Of a stretch of 45,324 nt of DNA, positions 4,502 to 32,453 are shown in pieces. Origin of the DNA: Sphaerochaetaceae bacterium (GTDB lineage Bacteria; Spirochaetota; Spirochaetia; Sphaerochaetales; Sphaerochaetaceae); assembly GCA_024698005.1 (NCBI GenBank), contig JAILRW010000058.1, forward strand, positions 1 through 45,324, written 5' to 3'. Position 1 is the first letter of the stretch; every line of letters begins with the position of its first letter. The notes beneath the pieces were generated by a model. It did no database searches and was not told the DNA's origin. It worked only from the letters and a program-made list of their open reading frames with translations. Made by a program: the position numbers and the translations under genes.

Positions 4502-4732
4502 ATGGCTAGAAGATGTGATATTTGCGGTAAGGGAACTGTTTCAGGTAATGTCGTTACTCGTAAAGGTCAGGCAAAGAAGAAGGGTGGTGTAGGTCAGCAC
4601 ATCGGTGTAACAACAAAGCGTGTTTTCCGCCCTAACCTTGTTTCTGTCAAGACCCTCATCAAGGGAACTCCTACAACCATTAAGGTTTGTACTCGCTGTC
4701 TCAGAACTGGTGCGTTCACAAAGCTTGTATAA
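4502..4732 (+). CDS. rpmB: 50S ribosomal protein L28
   Basis: The protein is 76 aa, the normal length for L28. The start MARRCDICGKG and the HIGVTTKRVFRPNL segment are diagnostic. Two CxxC pairs (CDIC near residue 5 and CTRC near residue 63) give the zinc-ribbon version of L28. It sits in the large ribosomal subunit. AAGGTGG lies 9 nt before the ATG, a strong ribosome-binding site in contrast with the leaderless neighbours. It is monocistronic, with its own promoter, a long structured leader and a terminator. Confidence 0.97.
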   Translation: MARRCDICGKGTVSGNVVTRKGQAKKKGGVGQHIGVTTKRVFRPNLVSVKTLIKGTPTTIKVCTRCLRTGAFTKLV

Positions 4733-4852: not shown

Positions 4853-4875
4853 TGCCCCAAAGGTGATGCTCATAG

Positions 4876-7278
4876 ATGGAAAATGCAAGAATCCACGCGC
4901 TTGAAGGCGCAATGCTTACCAGCCTAGCGGGGCTGGAAAAACTGATAAAGATAGAGAATCTTTCAGAGGAGAAGACCCAGGTCTTCGTCATTTCTCCTAT
5001 CCACTCAGGTCCTCTCTGCTTTGATGATCTTCTTTTTAGTGCTAGACAGAGAGATGAAAAACTCTGGGGTCTTCTTGAAAGATCACAGCAGGACTGGCTC
5101 GATCTGGTTACCGAATGTGGAGCAGATAGCGACGAAAGTGTCATTGGCACCATGAGAAAGGGTTTTGAGGATATGGAAGATATCCTTCGCTCTGTTTGGT
5201 TGCTTGGAAGTATTTCTCATGCTACACACGATTTCTTTGCAGGGCTCACTTCTGATTTCCTGTCCCTTATTGCCACTTCTTTATTCAAGAAGAATGGCAA
5301 GAAGTGCTCTGCTATCACAGCAGATGAGGCTGTAGCACTCAATAGCTTTGAGAGCAGTACTGTTCTTGTCTATGGCAAGCTTCTGCTCCCAGGAAAAATC
5401 AAACTCAAGAAGATTGAGGGAGAGGCTGAATACACAGCAGCCTTAATCGCTTCAAAGACCCACTCTGCTATCACATATTGGAACAACCGTTCTCTTTTAT
5501 GCACTGCCAGAAGGAAGGATATCCCATCTGCAAAGGTAATAAAGACCATGACCTATGCAGAAGCAACTGAGCTGTCATTCTTTGGTGCTCCTATTGTACA
5601 TCCACACTTCTTTATCCCTGCTCAGTCTGCAGGTCTGGATGTCCAGCTCAGATACTGGGGTGAGATCGAGAATGAGGGTACAGTAATTACAAGTGTAGCT
5701 TCACCTAAGACAAAGAAGAGCGCTCCTGTAAAAGCATTCTCTGTAATGAGAGATATTTCAATAATCAATATTGAAGGCGCAGGTATGTCCGGTGTGCCAG
5801 GTATTTCATCAAGGCTCTTTACTTCCCTTAGAGCAAACGATATCTCTGTCATCCTTATCAGCCAGGCTTCAAGTGAATACTCAATCTGTTTCGCTGTTCC
5901 CGCAAATCAGGTAGAGGAAGCACAGGTCTGTGTAGAGGCTGAGTTCAGAGATGAGATAGAGAATCATCAGATCGCTTCTGTCACTGTAATGAACAGTGTT
6001 GCTATCATCGCAGCTGTTGGTGAAGAGATGACTGGTTCTATCGGTGTTTCAGGAAAGTTCTTCTCTGCTCTCGCAAGAGCTGGTGTAAACGTAAAGGTAA
6101 TTGCTCAGGGTTCAAGTGAAAGAAATATCTCTGCTGTTATCAGAGAGAAGGATTCGGTAAGGGCACTCACTGCTCTGCATGCAGCATTCTTCCTGTCCGC
6201 TCAGGCTCTATCTGTTGGTCTATTTGGACCTGGTAACATTGGAGGAACACTCCTTGACCAGATAAGAGATGAACGCGATAGACTCAAGAAGCAGTTTGAT
6301 ATCGATATAAGGATCAGAGGCATTGCCAACAGCAGAAAGATGCTTCTTTCAGAAGAGGGTGTTGATCTTGATAACTGGAGAGAGCTCTTTGAGACAAAGG
6401 CTGTAGCTTTGGATACTGAGGCATTCCTTGATCATGTAGGAGCTGAATACTATCCACATGCTGCAATTGTTGACTGTACCACAAGCCCAGTGCTGGCAAG
6501 CTCCTATGTCGAGCTTCTGGAAAGATTCCATGTAATTACTCCTAACAAGAAGGCTGCAACTGGTAGCTATGAGTATTACAAGGCAATAATGGACAAGACC
6601 AACAGCAGTGGAAAGAGATTCTTGTATGAGACCACAGTTGGTGCAGGTCTTCCTGTAATAAATACTCTCAATGACCTTATTCAGACTGGTGATGAGATTT
6701 ACAAGATCGAAGGTATGGTTTCTGGTACTCTCGCTTGGCTTTTCAGTAAATATGATGGAAATACTCCATTCTCTGAATTGGTATATGAAGCTAAGAGACT
6801 TGGCTATACAGAGCCAGATCCTCGTGATGACCTCTCTGGTATGGACGTTGCCAGAAAGACTGTAATTCTCGCTCGTGAAATAGGCCTCTCTGTCGAGCTT
6901 TCAGAACTCGACATAACCTCACTTGTTCCAGATGCTCTCAAGGATGCATCCAAGGAAGATTTCTTGAAGAGACTTCCTGAAATGGATGAGGACATGAAGA
7001 GAAGATATGATGAGGCAAAGAGCCGTGGAATGGTTCTGAGATATGTTGGTAAGGTTGATCACGGCAAGTGTTCAGTTGCACTTGAAGAGTGTCCTCTTGA
7101 CCACCCATTTGCTCAGGCTCAGGGAACTGACAATGTCATCGCATTTACAACAAAGAGATATCACGAGGGACAGCCTCTGGTCGTAAAGGGACCAGGTGCA
7201 GGCCCTGAAGTAACTGCAGGTGGAGTTTTCTCTGACCTGCTGAGACTTTCCGTCTACCTAGGCGCAGGTCTCATCTGA
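4876..7278 (+). CDS. thrA: homoserine dehydrogenase fused to a degenerate aspartokinase domain
   Basis: The protein is 800 aa, with the architecture of E. coli ThrA: aspartokinase, two ACT domains, homoserine dehydrogenase. The dehydrogenase (about 445-800) looks intact, with the NAD(P) loop GPGNIGG (451-457), TPNKKA, and GYTEPDPRDDLSGMD. The ACT region keeps QASSEYS (330-336) and QGSSERNIS, the Thr-binding neighbourhood. The kinase half is eroded. There is no KFGGTS at the N terminus, the GRNGSD nucleotide loop is replaced by IEGEAEYTA (180-188), and TDVDGVYT is replaced by NNRSLLCTA (203-211). An in-frame TAG directly before the ATG rules out a longer N terminus. It therefore probably reduces aspartate semialdehyde to homoserine under threonine feedback, with aspartate phosphorylation done elsewhere. 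thrC follows 13 bp downstream. Confidence 0.92.
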   Translation: MENARIHALEGAMLTSLAGLEKLIKIENLSEEKTQVFVISPIHSGPLCFDDLLFSARQRDEKLWGLLERSQQDWLDLVTECGADSDESVIGTMRKGFEDMEDILRSVWLLGSISHATHDFFAGLTSDFLSLIATSLFKKNGKKCSAITADEAVALNSFESSTVLVYGKLLLPGKIKLKKIEGEAEYTAALIASKTHSAITYWNNRSLLCTARRKDIPSAKVIKTMTYAEATELSFFGAPIVHPHFFIPAQSAGLDVQLRYWGEIENEGTVITSVASPKTKKSAPVKAFSVMRDISIINIEGAGMSGVPGISSRLFTSLRANDISVILISQASSEYSICFAVPANQVEEAQVCVEAEFRDEIENHQIASVTVMNSVAIIAAVGEEMTGSIGVSGKFFSALARAGVNVKVIAQGSSERNISAVIREKDSVRALTALHAAFFLSAQALSVGLFGPGNIGGTLLDQIRDERDRLKKQFDIDIRIRGIANSRKMLLSEEGVDLDNWRELFETKAVALDTEAFLDHVGAEYYPHAAIVDCTTSPVLASSYVELLERFHVITPNKKAATGSYEYYKAIMDKTNSSGKRFLYETTVGAGLPVINTLNDLIQTGDEIYKIEGMVSGTLAWLFSKYDGNTPFSELVYEAKRLGYTEPDPRDDLSGMDVARKTVILAREIGLSVELSELDITSLVPDALKDASKEDFLKRLPEMDEDMKRRYDEAKSRGMVLRYVGKVDHGKCSVALEECPLDHPFAQAQGTDNVIAFTTKRYHEGQPLVVKGPGAGPEVTAGGVFSDLLRLSVYLGAGLI

Positions 7279-7291
7279 TAGGAGATATAAT

Positions 7292-8554
7292 ATGTATTTT
7301 GTTTCAACTAGAGATAAGGAAAAGCAGAATAGACTCTGCGCAAGTGAGGCAATCCTTAAAGGGCTTGCTCCAGATGGAGGACTCTATGTTCCATCAGAGC
7401 TCCCTCAGCTTTCAAAGGATGTTAATGTAGATCTTCCATATGACGAGTTTGCCTATAGAGTTCTTCTTCCTTTCTTTGATGGGGACAAGAATCTTTCCAA
7501 GGAAGATCTCAGGGATATCTGCCGTGGTGCTTTCAACTTCCCAATTCCTCTTAACAAGCTTTCTTCTACTTCTGTTCTAGAGCTGTTTCACGGCCCAACA
7601 GCCGCTTTCAAGGATTTTGGTGCAAGATTCCTTGCTTTCACAATGGAAAAGCTCCTGGTAAAGAAAAATGAGAAGCTTTGTATTCTTGTTGCTACCTCTG
7701 GTGATACTGGTGGTGCAGTTGCTTCTGCTTTCTATAAGAGGCAGAACCTTTCTGTAAAGGTTCTCTTTCCGAAGGGAAGAGTTGCTGAGAGACAGAAGAA
7801 GCAGCTCACATGTTGGGGTGAAAATGTCGAATCCTATGAGGTAAGAGGTAGCTTTGACGACTGTCAGAGAATGGTCAAGAGCGCTTTTGTTGATAAGGAC
7901 CTTTCTGGCCTTTCTTCTGCAAACTCCATCAACCTTGGTCGTCTCCTTCCTCAGATGGTCTACTATGTATATGCTTCAATGCTCTACGTAAAGCAGTATG
8001 GTAAGTCTCCTGTTATCATCGTTCCATCTGGAAACGTTGGAAACTGTACTGGTGCTTACTGGGCAAGAAAGATTGGCTCTCCTATAAAGAGAGTTGCTCT
8101 TGCAGTCAATGCAAATACAACCATTCCTGAATATCTTGAGAGTGGAAAGTACAATCCTCGTGATGCTATCAAGACAATTGCCAACGCAATGGATGTTGGT
8201 GCGCCAAGCAACATGGAGCGTTTGTTCGATCTCTTCAAGAGCTATGAGGAGATGTGTGAAAATGTCTCTGCCTGGTCTGTAAATGATGATGAAATCAGAA
8301 GGACTATCAAGGAAGTATACAGTGAAGAGAAGTATGTGATGTGTCCTCATACTGCCTGTGGCGAGAGAGTGAGAAGGGATCACTTTGCAGGTGAAGATAC
8401 GATAATTGTATCAACTGCTCATCCAGCTAAGTTTGAAACTATTGTTGAGCCTTTGATCGGTATAACAGTTGAAATGCCTGCATCTCTTTCTTCTCTTATG
8501 GACAAGAAGAGTATTTATAAGGAGATCGATGCAGATTACCATCTACTCTTCTGA
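7292..8554 (+). CDS. thrC: threonine synthase
   Basis: The protein is 420 aa. It is a PLP enzyme converting O-phosphohomoserine to threonine. The PLP lysine lies in GPTAAFKDFGARF (near residue 110), and the phosphate-binding loop SGDTGGAVASAF follows. Length and motifs match the ThrC class found in E. coli and Bacteroidetes. The ribosome-binding site GGAGAT sits 6 nt before the ATG. It is 13 bp downstream of thrA and clearly shares its message, so two of the last three steps of threonine synthesis are coupled; homoserine kinase (thrB) is not in the window. Confidence 0.95.
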   Translation: MYFVSTRDKEKQNRLCASEAILKGLAPDGGLYVPSELPQLSKDVNVDLPYDEFAYRVLLPFFDGDKNLSKEDLRDICRGAFNFPIPLNKLSSTSVLELFHGPTAAFKDFGARFLAFTMEKLLVKKNEKLCILVATSGDTGGAVASAFYKRQNLSVKVLFPKGRVAERQKKQLTCWGENVESYEVRGSFDDCQRMVKSAFVDKDLSGLSSANSINLGRLLPQMVYYVYASMLYVKQYGKSPVIIVPSGNVGNCTGAYWARKIGSPIKRVALAVNANTTIPEYLESGKYNPRDAIKTIANAMDVGAPSNMERLFDLFKSYEEMCENVSAWSVNDDEIRRTIKEVYSEEKYVMCPHTACGERVRRDHFAGEDTIIVSTAHPAKFETIVEPLIGITVEMPASLSSLMDKKSIYKEIDADYHLLF

Positions 8555-28077: not shown

Positions 28078-30210
28078 ATGGATTTTACTTTGAGCAGGGT
28101 CCACAGTGAGGATGTGATGCACCTTATGGAGCACTATCACCTTCCTTCTACTTGGGCTACTGTACTTGCAAGGCGTGGTGTCACTAAAAGACAGGATGTC
28201 AGGTTCTATTTGGAAAATGGACTTGGCTATTTACATTCACCTTTCCTCTTTGAAGATATGGAAAGCGCAGTAGAGCGCGTCCTTTCTGCAATGGAGGACA
28301 AGGAAACTGTCTGTGTCTTTGGAGATAGAGATGCAGATGGTATTACTTCAACTGCTCTTCTGGTAAGAGAGTTGAGAAGTTCTGGTATCGATACATCCTA
28401 CCTTCTTCCAGAAGGGGATGAGCCTTATGGTTTGACTTTACAGGCAGTTGAGAAGATAAAGGCCTTGAATGCTACTCTTGTTATCACTGTAGACTGTGGA
28501 ATTTCCTGCGTGGATGCAATCGATGAGCTTAATAGAAATGGAATCGATACAGTTGTTCTTGACCATCATATTGCAGGAGAGATCAAGCCAGATGCCATCG
28601 CTATCATAGATCCTAAGGATCCTGAGTCCGGTTATCCTTTTGAACACCTTGCAGGCTGTGGCGTAGTTGCCAAGTTCATCTGGGCTCTTCGCTTTGCTCA
28701 GACTGACCTCTGGAAAAGTAGTGTGATATTGCTTCATGCAGAACCAGGTCCAGGAGAGAACTCAACTACAATTATCCAGGCGGTTCATCTGGAGAATCTG
28801 GTAGAAGTCGATAGAATCATTGACGAGGTCCCAAATGGGAACATCGATCTTTATTCAAGTCGTATCGTCAACTTCCTCAACAGAAATCTTCCTATTCTGG
28901 TATTGGACAAGAGCACAGAGCTCAAAGCATTGAGGAATGCTTTTGGTCCTGGCGTCGACATCTCCCTTGTCGAGATAAGGGATGAGCTTGAAAAGGTAAT
29001 CCCAAGTGTCAAAAGTAGGGGGCTGTTTGAACTTTCCAAGAGAAGTAGGGCGGTCATGTACAAGGATGGACACGAGGAACTTGAAACGCTTGTCTCTCTC
29101 TTCACAAGTTGCTGCATCTACAAATATCCAGAATTATCTTCAAAGTGGGTCCAGATACTGGATCTGGTTGCTATTGGTACAATTGCTGACCTTATGCCAT
29201 TGAAGGATGAAAATAGGATTCTTGTCCGCCTTGGCCTTGATAGACTATCTAATGCACCTTGTCAGCAACTCACACCGCTGCTTTCCAAGCAGAATCTTAT
29301 CTCACGTCCTCTTTCAAGTCAGGATGTTGGCTGGTATGTCTCTCCAGTAATCAATGCAAGTGGAAGACTCGGAAGGCCTTCTGTCGCTGTAGAGCTCTTG
29401 CTTTCCGACAGCCTTGATGAGATCGAAAAGAGGACAAACGAACTCTTTGAGCTCAATAAAGAGCGCCAGAAGAGAGGAGAGGAGGCCTGGGAAAGAGTTA
29501 AGCCAAAGGCAAAGAAGAGCCTTGAGGATTTTGGAAGCAAGTTTGTACTGATAGAGGATAAGAGTATAGAAAGAGGTCTAACTGGCTCCCTGTCTTCCAG
29601 AGTATTGAAGGAGTGTGGTGCTTCCCCTGCTGCAATGGTACTTGCTGATGCAGGAGATGGAAGAATTTCTGCATCTATAAGATCTAGAAATGGTTTTGAT
29701 TCAAGAGCTTTCCTTGCAAAGTTCTCTTCCCTTCTTGATGATTTTGGTGGTCACAAATATGCAGGTGGTTTTTCAATGAAAGCTGAGAACCTTCCAGCTT
29801 TCCGAAAGAAGGTAGAGGAAGAAGTTTTCTCTATGGATGCTTTCGAGAGTGACGATACTATCAATGTAGATCTAATGCTCGATAAAAATACATTGAATGA
29901 GAATCTAGTGAATCTTGTTGAAAGCTTCGAGCCATATGGCGAACAGAATCCACCACTTGTCTTCATGGCTGAAGGACCAGAAATAAAGAATATAGTTGAA
30001 CTTGGGAATGATAGGGAAAGAGGTCATTTGAAATTGACTCTTTCCTATGGCAGATACTTGTGGAACTGCGTATTCTGGTCTGCAAGGGGACGATATCCAA
30101 ATGACTTCACAGTAGGAGACCAGGTCAGGGTTATCTTCCGTCTGGGTAGAAACTACTGGAAGGGCTCCGCTTCATTGCAGCTTACTATCATGGGAATGGA
30201 GCGACTATGA
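28078..30210 (+). CDS. recJ: single-stranded-DNA exonuclease RecJ
   Basis: The protein is 710 aa. It is a 5'-3' ssDNA exonuclease of the DHH superfamily. The metal motifs are present: FGDRDADGITSTAL (near 82), TVDCGIS, and VLDHHIAGE (DHH near 162). DHHA1 with GGHKYAGGFS (near 557) and a C-terminal OB segment follow. It is about 130 residues longer than E. coli RecJ. The extra length lies roughly between residues 215 and 350, after the DHH domain. It is cotranscribed with recO. Confidence 0.94.
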   Translation: MDFTLSRVHSEDVMHLMEHYHLPSTWATVLARRGVTKRQDVRFYLENGLGYLHSPFLFEDMESAVERVLSAMEDKETVCVFGDRDADGITSTALLVRELRSSGIDTSYLLPEGDEPYGLTLQAVEKIKALNATLVITVDCGISCVDAIDELNRNGIDTVVLDHHIAGEIKPDAIAIIDPKDPESGYPFEHLAGCGVVAKFIWALRFAQTDLWKSSVILLHAEPGPGENSTTIIQAVHLENLVEVDRIIDEVPNGNIDLYSSRIVNFLNRNLPILVLDKSTELKALRNAFGPGVDISLVEIRDELEKVIPSVKSRGLFELSKRSRAVMYKDGHEELETLVSLFTSCCIYKYPELSSKWVQILDLVAIGTIADLMPLKDENRILVRLGLDRLSNAPCQQLTPLLSKQNLISRPLSSQDVGWYVSPVINASGRLGRPSVAVELLLSDSLDEIEKRTNELFELNKERQKRGEEAWERVKPKAKKSLEDFGSKFVLIEDKSIERGLTGSLSSRVLKECGASPAAMVLADAGDGRISASIRSRNGFDSRAFLAKFSSLLDDFGGHKYAGGFSMKAENLPAFRKKVEEEVFSMDAFESDDTINVDLMLDKNTLNENLVNLVESFEPYGEQNPPLVFMAEGPEIKNIVELGNDRERGHLKLTLSYGRYLWNCVFWSARGRYPNDFTVGDQVRVIFRLGRNYWKGSASLQLTIMGMERL

Positions 30211-30212
30211 CA

Positions 30213-30241
30213 GGAAGGACCACCTTTTGATGTGTCCTTCC
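30213..30241 (+). terminator. hairpin after recJ, T-run absent
   Basis: GGAAGGAC pairs with GTCCTTCC directly after the recJ stop, but ATAAATAG follows instead of a T-tract. It may be a factor-dependent stop or an mRNA 3' stabiliser. The rest of the gap to 30419 is A+T-rich with no other feature seen. Confidence 0.45.
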
Positions 30242-30419
30242 ATAAATAGTATAAAACGAAAGGAAAAATTATTTTTTCCTTAAATGGTCGTTACATTTCT
30301 TGTGGAAATATAGAAAAATTGATTTTTTGATAAAAAAATATTAGTTAAATTAATATATACATAAATTTTTTTATAAAAATTACTTTTTTAATAAAATTTT
30401 ACATCAAAAATTAATATAT

Positions 30420-30448
30420 TTGACTGAAAAACGGTTGCATTGGATACT
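30420..30448 (+). promoter_or_regulatory. promoter of the serine operon
   Basis: TTGACT, 17-nt spacer, GATACT. The same -10 hexamer is used by tRNA-Pro copy 2. The leader is about 30 nt with GGGAGGA. Confidence 0.7.
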
Positions 30449-30486
30449 TTTCTTGTGAAGAATAAAAAATATAGGGAGGAATCGCA

Positions 30487-31374
30487 ATGCTTATTTTAAT
30501 TGCAGATGCATTTGATAAAGGTCTGCCAGCAAAGCTTTCTGTATTTGGTGAAGTCACCGATGATATTTCAAGACTTCCTGAAGCTGACGTCGTTCTTATT
30601 AGAAGTAAGACAAAAGCAACTAAGGAATACATTGATCAAGCAAAGAACATGAAGGTAATACTCCGCGGTGGAGTAGGAATGGATAATATTGATAGAGCCT
30701 ACTGTAAGGAAAAGGGCATTATCGCAATGAATACTCCTCATGCTTCAGCTCCTGCTGTAGCCGAGCTCGCATTTGCTCTTATGCTCTCTACTGCTGCAAG
30801 AATCTGTTTCTATGACAACTCCATGAAGAAGGGTGAATGGGCAAAGAAGGAAAAGAGAACTGAACTTCTTGGAAAGACTCTTGGCCTTATCGGCTTTGGC
30901 AACATCTCTAAGTCTCTTGCTCAGAGAGCAAAGGCTTTCGGTATGAACGTTGTCTACTATGACATCATCAAGAGTGATGTTGACTATGCTGAGTACAAGA
31001 GTTCAATGGATGAGGTTGTTGAGAATGCTGACTACATCTCCTTCCACATTCCATATACTCCAGAGACTGACAAGGTACTCAATAAGGATCTCATTGCCAA
31101 GATGAAGAAGGCTCCTGTCATTATCAACACAGCACGCGGCAAGATTGTAAACGAGCAGGATGTTGCTGACGCACTCAAGGAAGGTAAGCTCTCATGGTAC
31201 TGCACCGATGTATATACTTCTGAGCCACCTGTAATGGAAGACAATCCTCTCTTCAAGGCTGAGAGAGTAACTTTCACACCACATGTAGGTGCCAATAGTA
31301 AAGAAAACCTCCTCAGAATTGGAGACGAGGTCTATGAAACAATCGAGAAGTACCATAAGGAGGGTATAATCTGA
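30487..31374 (+). CDS. serA: D-3-phosphoglycerate dehydrogenase (short form, no ACT domain)
   Basis: The protein is 295 aa. It belongs to the D-isomer-specific 2-hydroxyacid dehydrogenases: the NAD loop is GFGNIS (136-141), INTARGKIV carries the substrate Arg, and TPHVGANSKEN the catalytic His (near 273). Family alone would allow other 2-hydroxyacids, but serC begins immediately after the stop, which makes phosphoglycerate oxidation, the first step of serine synthesis, the best call. It has no C-terminal ACT domain, so no serine feedback site is seen. A strong ribosome-binding site (GGGAGGA) precedes it. Confidence 0.88.
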   Translation: MLILIADAFDKGLPAKLSVFGEVTDDISRLPEADVVLIRSKTKATKEYIDQAKNMKVILRGGVGMDNIDRAYCKEKGIIAMNTPHASAPAVAELAFALMLSTAARICFYDNSMKKGEWAKKEKRTELLGKTLGLIGFGNISKSLAQRAKAFGMNVVYYDIIKSDVDYAEYKSSMDEVVENADYISFHIPYTPETDKVLNKDLIAKMKKAPVIINTARGKIVNEQDVADALKEGKLSWYCTDVYTSEPPVMEDNPLFKAERVTFTPHVGANSKENLLRIGDEVYETIEKYHKEGII

Positions 31375-32453
31375 TGAGAAAGAAGAATTATTTTGCAGGT
31401 CCTTCTGTACTTCCAATGGAGGTACTTCAGGAGATGAGAGATCAGCTCGTTGATTACGAGGGAAATGGTATCTCAATGCTAGAGACCAGCCATCGTGGTG
31501 GCATGTTCGAGAAGATGTATGACGATTGTCTTTCAACATTCAGAGAACTCATTCACATCCCAGAGGATTACGATGTCTATTTCCTCGGTGGTGGTGCAAC
31601 TCTCCAGTTTGCAATGATCCCATTCAACTTCCTTCTTCCTGGAACCAAGGCTGCATATTGTAAGACTGGTACCTGGGCAAACAAAGCTTGCAATGATGCT
31701 CAGAAGATTGGTGACGTTGCAGTTATCTTCGATGACAAGGAAAACAACTATACACATCTTCCAGATGTAGACAAGCTCGTTATTCCTGAAAACTGTTCCT
31801 ACCTCTATCTCTGTGCCAACGAGACAATTGGAGGTATTGAATACAAGAAGTTCCCAAAGAGAGACAAGACTCCAATCATTGCAGATATGTCCTCTGACTT
31901 CATGTCCCGCCCTGTCGATGTTTCAAACTTCGATATGATCTATGGTGGTGTACAGAAGAACCTCGGACCTGCTGGTGCTACATTCATCATAATGAAGAAG
32001 TCAATGCTCGATAGAAGGAACAAAAACCTCGTTGCTTATCTTGATTACGCTCTTCATGCAAAGGAAAAGGGCCTTTACAACACTCCTCCAGTTGCAGCTA
32101 TCTGGGGTGTCAAGCTTATGTTCGACTGGATCAAGAAGATGGGTGGTGTAGAAGCTATGGACAAGAGGGCAGAGCTCAAGAGTTCCATGATCTACAATAT
32201 CATCGACTCTTCCGATTTCTGGAGAAGTCCAGTAGATCCTGCAGTAAGGTCAAGAATGAATATTGTCTTCCGTCTTCCATCTGAAGAGCTTGAAGCAAAG
32301 TTCGTTGAAGAGTCCAAGAAGGAAGGTATGCTTGGTTTGAAGGGACACAGATCTGTTGGTGGTCTCAGGGCATCCCTCTACAACGCTTGTCCTGTTGAGG
32401 ATGTTGAGGCACTTGCTGCATTCATGAAGGAATTTGAGAGAAAGAATGGCTAA
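31374..32453 (+). CDS. serC: phosphoserine aminotransferase
   Basis: The protein is 359 aa. It is a PLP aminotransferase making 3-phosphoserine from 3-phosphohydroxypyruvate and glutamate. NYFAGPSVLP at the start, GGGATLQF (72-79) and the PLP lysine at 195 in YGGVQKNLGPAG are diagnostic. Its ATG overlaps the end of serA by one base, with AAGGAGGG 9 nt upstream. serB is not adjacent. Confidence 0.96.
   Translation: MRKKNYFAGPSVLPMEVLQEMRDQLVDYEGNGISMLETSHRGGMFEKMYDDCLSTFRELIHIPEDYDVYFLGGGATLQFAMIPFNFLLPGTKAAYCKTGTWANKACNDAQKIGDVAVIFDDKENNYTHLPDVDKLVIPENCSYLYLCANETIGGIEYKKFPKRDKTPIIADMSSDFMSRPVDVSNFDMIYGGVQKNLGPAGATFIIMKKSMLDRRNKNLVAYLDYALHAKEKGLYNTPPVAAIWGVKLMFDWIKKMGGVEAMDKRAELKSSMIYNIIDSSDFWRSPVDPAVRSRMNIVFRLPSEELEAKFVEESKKEGMLGLKGHRSVGGLRASLYNACPVEDVEALAAFMKEFERKNG

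Follow-up and report, generated by a model that had tools for sequence, protein, structure and literature searches.

The thrA-like gene of the window (the whole stretch of 45,324 nucleotides analyzed here) raises the question of whether the N-terminal half of its product still works as an aspartokinase and, if it does not, why it has been kept. The original prediction placed a catalytically dead aspartokinase domain at positions 4876 to 5625, corresponding to residues 1 to 250, in a protein otherwise laid out like the bifunctional ThrA. The features of the locus are collected in Table 1.

Gene order, domains and predicted fold

Judging from its architecture and from its ACT and dehydrogenase residues, the window protein is an orthologue of ThrA. 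A kinase fold, two ACT domains and a homoserine dehydrogenase were recognized in a single chain by Pfam, NCBIfam and structural modeling (AlphaFold2 and Foldseek). Strong Pfam matches were obtained for the ACT region (PF22468; E = 3.7e-41) and the homoserine dehydrogenase (PF00742; E = 5.3e-51), and the NAD domain of the dehydrogenase was also matched. For its part, the AA_kinase match was restricted to residues 115 to 257 (E = 1.3e-8). The NCBIfam model NF006959 (PRK09436), an equivalog for bifunctional aspartate kinase/homoserine dehydrogenase I, gave a score of 777.6 bits (cut-off, 726), with its best-matching stretch starting only at residue 184.

When 84,980 species genomes were scanned, 99 stretches encoding relatives were obtained. 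The 80 loci listed out of these 99 are all spirochaetal, including those of Bullifex porci, Candidatus Ornithospirochaeta and Sphaerochaeta halotolerans, and together with the window protein and a second copy on contig C28 they make up the 82-sequence Sphaerochaetaceae set. The equivalents of E. coli S345, Q351, S353, S354, G433, S434 and E436 in the ACT threonine site, positions that are important for the threonine response of ThrA, were identical in all 82 sequences. Similarly, the dehydrogenase motif TPNKKA was present in 82 of 82, and the E, D and K of YTEPDPRDDLSGMDVARK were found in the 81 sequences in which that part is present, in agreement with the predicted good conservation of the ACT and dehydrogenase regions.

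The thrC gene starts 13 bases after thrA, and many relatives keep the order rpmB-thrA-thrC, often preceded by nth. The in-frame TAG that had been put forward against a missed N terminus was confirmed; since it adjoins the ATG and rpmB lies just upstream, no N terminus is missing from the window protein. These observations, plus the open frames in all 80 relatives' loci (79 complete; L165 cut by a contig end), exclude both a missed N terminus and a frameshift.

Table 1. Features of the thrA locus (positions in the window; LysC numbering refers to the E. coli enzyme)
Feature	Positions	Strand	Basis
thrA-like gene, 800 aa (predicted pseudo-aspartokinase, two ACT domains, homoserine dehydrogenase)	4876-7278	+	ORF, Pfam, NCBIfam
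Predicted pseudo-aspartokinase domain, residues 1-275	4876-5700	+	AlphaFold2 (pLDDT 92.3, pTM 0.90); top Foldseek matches aspartokinases
Residues 7-13, HALEGAM where the KFGGTS lysine motif is expected (K8 > A8)	4894-4914	+	Alignment
W64, new invariant residue of the clade with putatively dead kinase, absent from intact ThrAs	5065-5067	+	Conservation comparison
W108, newly conserved in that clade	5197-5199	+	Conservation comparison
Residues 123-129, GLTSDFL versus the GE(K/L)MS aspartate-binding motif (E119 > S126)	5242-5262	+	Alignment
Residues 180-185, IEGEAE versus the GRNGSD loop (R198 > E181, D202 > E185)	5413-5430	+	Alignment, profile
Residues 203-209, NNRSLLC versus the TDVDG nucleotide-binding motif (T221 > N203, D222 > N204)	5482-5502	+	Alignment, profile
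T231, changed specifically in that clade (almost all intact ThrAs have M)	5566-5568	+	Conservation comparison
P239 at the LysC K257 position	5590-5592	+	Alignment
Two ACT domains, residues 286-440, threonine-site motifs QASSEYS (330) and QGSSERN (411)	5731-6195	+	Pfam, residue conservation, fold match 6mx1
Homoserine dehydrogenase domain, residues 444-800, TPNKKA and YTEPDPRDDLSGMDVARK motifs intact	6205-7275	+	Pfam, motif conservation
In-frame TAG stop immediately 5' of the thrA ATG	4873-4875	+	Read from sequence
thrC, threonine synthase, adjoining thrA downstream (conserved neighbor)	7292-8554	+	ORF, NCBIfam, relatives' gene order
rpmB (ribosomal protein L28), upstream of thrA, kept in many relatives	4502-4732	+	Sequence inspection

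The genome of the window (G000) is a fragmented assembly of 169 contigs, 92% complete. It holds a second thrA-thrC pair of the same dead-kinase type on contig C28 (positions 29800 to 32199, minus strand; L007, 7180 to 9582), 82% identical to that of the window. This pair was initially read as a paralogue, a reading that was set aside because rpmB lies upstream there too; it is probably the orthologous locus of a co-binned relative.

AlphaFold2 models were built from alignments of window-like proteins and compared with the PDB by using Foldseek. The N-terminal lobe alone (residues 1 to 275) was confidently modeled as an aspartokinase fold, and residues 1 to 445 reached a pLDDT of 89.1 and a pTM of 0.86. 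The top PDB matches of both models were aspartokinases, the first being the threonine-sensitive enzyme of M. jannaschii (3c1m, 3c1n, 2hmf). Residues 1 to 445 were closer to its threonine-bound form (3c1n; TM 0.83 to 0.85) than to its substrate-bound form (3c1m; 0.78 to 0.79, by query length), which was solved with MgAMP-PNP and aspartate. The leading matches of the lobe gave TM values of 0.71 to 0.81 by query length, and the ACT part matched the regulatory domain 6mx1 at 0.95 by target length. The aspartokinase fold is thus retained in the models despite the loss of residues described below. The M. jannaschii enzyme differs from the window protein in being monofunctional and in having retained the lysine, aspartate and TDV motifs.

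Aspartokinase residues in the window protein and across Spirochaetia

In aspartokinases, the residues corresponding to K8 and D202 of LysC are important for catalysis. E119 and R198 of LysC bind aspartate through salt bridges with its amino and carboxylate groups (PMC5481828). Alignment to E. coli ThrA and LysC placed KFGGTS over HALEGAM, GEKMS over TSDFL, GRNGSDY over IEGEAEY (residues 180 to 186) and TDVDGVY over NNRSLLC, bearing out the losses first noticed in the KFGGTS, GRNGSD (IEGEAEYTA) and TDVDG motifs. The KFGG(T/S)S lysine, E119 and R198, D202 and the TDV motif, which mark an active aspartokinase, are all replaced. A further substitution affects G225 (L207), and the LysC letter is retained only at G11, S39 and G199 among the positions tabulated.

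The same changes run through the 82-sequence set. At the K8 position, 77 sequences have A, 4 have S and one has a gap. All 82 show E at D202 and N at T221, 81 show P at K257, and E119 and R198 are lost in nearly all. Alignment of the lobe with intact ThrAs is less certain at positions outside the motifs. At the motifs, a profile of the 80 relatives aligned independently to 3c1m gave a register identical to that of the LysC/ThrA alignment, with E185 on the catalytic D, N203 on T, and no displaced lysine. This agreement argues that the catalytic residues are absent rather than displaced; displacement, which would have spoken against the original prediction, was looked for by profile and fold comparison and was not found. 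With key positions replaced in the window protein and 81 relatives and the predicted fold kept, the view of a catalytically dead kinase half is strongly supported, and aspartokinase activity would be completely absent. Since the residues defining an active aspartokinase are missing, EC 2.7.2.4 should not be assigned to the window protein.

To judge from motif losses shared by 82 of 82 Sphaerochaetaceae sequences and by other families, as the proposed survey of spirochaete homologues revealed, the dead kinase is an ancient state common to several families and not peculiar to the window gene. A total of 248 genomes of the class were surveyed, in which fused ThrAs occur in several families (f-numbers are working labels, not family names). 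Five families besides Sphaerochaetaceae show partial or full losses. In Treponema-like families f24 and f42 and in G040 (f5), which have the same fusion, the kinase motifs are intact, in the forms KFGG(T/S)S, GR(N/G/D)GSD and (T/S)DV(D/E)G. Partial loss was observed in f22, with the lysine kept (KFDDS, KFDRE), LGRHGSE or LGRHGME in the loop, and a degraded TDVDG, and in f25, with RVDG or AFEG and FHSDGAE or LGRDGAE. Since f22 keeps the lysine and some of its members the arginine, kinase activity may persist there. Loss is full or nearly full in f3, f4, f17 and f1, the arginine surviving in f17 only in G075. Among the degenerate ThrAs whose lobe can be compared, D202 is changed to E throughout; the strongly reduced G179 is the exception. 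A viral source was rejected, no relative being found on viral contigs.

A tree was built on the ACT and dehydrogenase columns, leaving out the kinase lobe. An earlier tree that included E. coli MetL and very long branches was misrooted, and MetL, G179, G028, G182 and G080 were omitted from the final one. This tree requires one change of state, the branch of the dead group having a support of 89/91 and appearing in 86% of bootstrap trees. A single origin of the kinase loss is thus the best-supported tree, with moderate support, given that G040 and the outgroup lie on long branches.

Reduction went further in some lineages. Within f1 the lobe is partly deleted in G027 (L102; 720 aa), G215 (L249; 715 aa) and G028 (L101; 653 aa), as it is in L264 (G179) of the same family, the four proteins spanning 653 to 749 aa. 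Some genera have a monofunctional dehydrogenase, and separate dehydrogenases were found in G022 to G026 and G033. The lobe is thus not essential everywhere. The presence of intact, partly lost, fully lost, truncated and missing forms in a single class makes the order of the losses readable and testable.

Pathway context and annotation

The original prediction called for a search for a separate aspartokinase (lysC), and one was found. Contig C84 of the window genome carries a 407-aa frame, cut by the contig end, with intact KFGGSS, SRGGSD and WTDVSG motifs; it is the one further aspartokinase found in that genome. The other kinase-fold genes found there begin, on sequence inspection, like glutamate 5-kinase, a UMP-kinase-like protein and carbamate kinase. 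By hand count, a strong match to a separate aspartokinase (E < 1e-70) was present in 46 of the 49 surveyed genomes whose ThrA is degenerate or reduced; among the remaining three, G155 has no separate aspartokinase, G027 has a contig-edge fragment, and G075 is without a clear assignment. No aspartate-semialdehyde dehydrogenase domain (PF02774, PF01118) was found in the window genome, while sister genome G006 has a PF01118 match; this is probably due to the incompleteness of the assembly.

The domain order, the ACT threonine-site residues, the dehydrogenase motifs and the thrC neighbor are those of E. coli ThrA (aspartokinase I-homoserine dehydrogenase I), from which the window locus differs in the replaced aspartokinase residues and in the lack of thrB between thrA and thrC. 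Several ThrAs with a dead kinase score above the NF006959 cut-off (the window protein, L118 of Bullifex porci, L176, the C28 copy and that of G060), so that automatic annotation will name them bifunctional aspartate kinases. Through the NCBIfam equivalog, dozens of spirochaete proteins are credited with an aspartate kinase activity that they very probably lack. The misannotation has consequences for metabolic models of spirochaetes from the gut and the environment, in which the aspartokinase step would fall to a separate LysC-like enzyme. A dead aspartokinase in ThrA was not found described in the open-licence literature, and these proteins add a clear case of a fused catalytic domain of a metabolic enzyme that has apparently turned into a pseudoenzyme.

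Selection on the retained lobe and its possible role

The dead lobe is under purifying selection. Pairwise dN/dS values were calculated by the Nei-Gojobori method with a custom script. Across the 19 closest pairs, in which the dS of the dehydrogenase did not exceed about 0.75, lobe values ranged from 0.043 to 0.133, compared with about 0.01 to 0.08 in the other domains. Medians over 221 pairs were 0.21 for the lobe, 0.11 for the ACT region and 0.14 for the dehydrogenase, with dS near saturation in the distant pairs. The lobe has also acquired conserved residues of its own. Of the 37 positions that do not vary among intact ThrAs, 18 have changed in the dead ones, and W64, W108, E185, T231, L52, A56 and E61 have become fixed, or almost fixed, in the dead proteins of Sphaerochaetaceae as well as in the majority of intermediates from other families; W64, W108, T231, L52, A56 and E185 are missing from the intact sister G040. 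Sequence, dN/dS and models thus concur in a kinase fold kept under selection without its catalytic residues, as expected of a regulatory pseudokinase. Purifying selection and the newly fixed residues support the view that the lobe survives because it still does something.

We consider it probable that the window protein is a threonine-regulated homoserine dehydrogenase with an ancient N-terminal pseudo-aspartokinase, that the kinase was inactivated a single time, ahead of the radiation of several families of Spirochaetia, and that aspartyl phosphate comes from a separate aspartokinase. According to the conserved residues and to family knowledge, that separate enzyme would supply aspartyl phosphate, the ThrA chain would act as the homoserine dehydrogenase, and threonine would bind to the ACT domains and inhibit the dehydrogenase by analogy with ThrA. 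For its part, the lobe may keep the ACT domains and the oligomer in a threonine-responsive arrangement and relay threonine binding to the dehydrogenase. We infer such a structural or allosteric scaffold role, which is consistent with the data. The proposal that the pseudo-aspartokinase itself senses threonine holds only as far as the protein is concerned: the threonine-site residues are conserved in all 82 sequences, and it is the ACT domains, rather than the kinase lobe, that would do the sensing.

In N-acetylglutamate synthase, a domain of the amino-acid-kinase fold without kinase activity regulates the catalytic domain fused to it. We take this domain to be the nearest analogue of the lobe described here, albeit a functional one only: it belongs to another kinase subfamily, is fused to an acetyltransferase and binds arginine, whereas the effector site expected in the window protein lies in the ACT domains. 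As a tentative extension of the pseudo-aspartokinase reading, the lobe could have been rebuilt on the stem of the dead clade, where D202>E, W64, W108, L52 and T231 would have been fixed together, to be retained in several families afterward, into a new sensor or interface that controls the homoserine dehydrogenase beside threonine, possibly by binding a metabolite other than aspartate or ATP.

The faster evolution of the lobe relative to the ACT and dehydrogenase domains means that part of its retention could be the inertia of a fused fold. The lobe might even be a mere remnant for folding or solubility, with no regulatory part, whose removal destabilizes the fused protein and whose eventual loss is to be expected, in keeping with the truncated lobes of G027, G215 and G028 and the separate dehydrogenases of G022 to G026 and G033. 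We regard this as rather unlikely in view of the residues absent from intact ThrAs that were fixed and then kept across six families (W64, W108, T231, E185, L52) and of the low lobe dN/dS in close pairs (0.04 to 0.13).

Reconstruction of the pocket for a new ligand (for instance, a regulatory metabolite, on the model of N-acetylglutamate synthase) or a new reaction (for instance, a different kinase reaction, like the phosphorylation of homoserine) appears improbable. It would fit the fact that E185, which takes the place of the catalytic D, is invariant among the 82+17 dead sequences and that H7 is 99% conserved in Sphaerochaetaceae. It would also fit the search for homoserine kinases (ThrB, TIGR02535 and APH families), which recognized none in G000 or its sister G006, even though thrA and thrC are present; a TIGR00191 match in G000 begins like IspE. 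However, the use of ATP is unlikely now that the lysine has been lost along with both the GRNGSD loop and the nucleotide-binding TDVDG motif, and an APH-type candidate kinase is found elsewhere in most other genomes of the genus.

That the kinase remains active through displaced residues, as the KF and occasional arginine of the f22 intermediates might suggest, or that the sequence is an assembly error is scarcely credible against the 3c1m profile register and against changes shared by 80 loci of other public assemblies, all in open frames.

Two long frames of the class, L107 (G050; 769 aa) and L106 (G044; 758 aa), end in an aspartokinase-like domain, matched from about residues 349 and 513, respectively, and are apparently other aspartokinase fusions.
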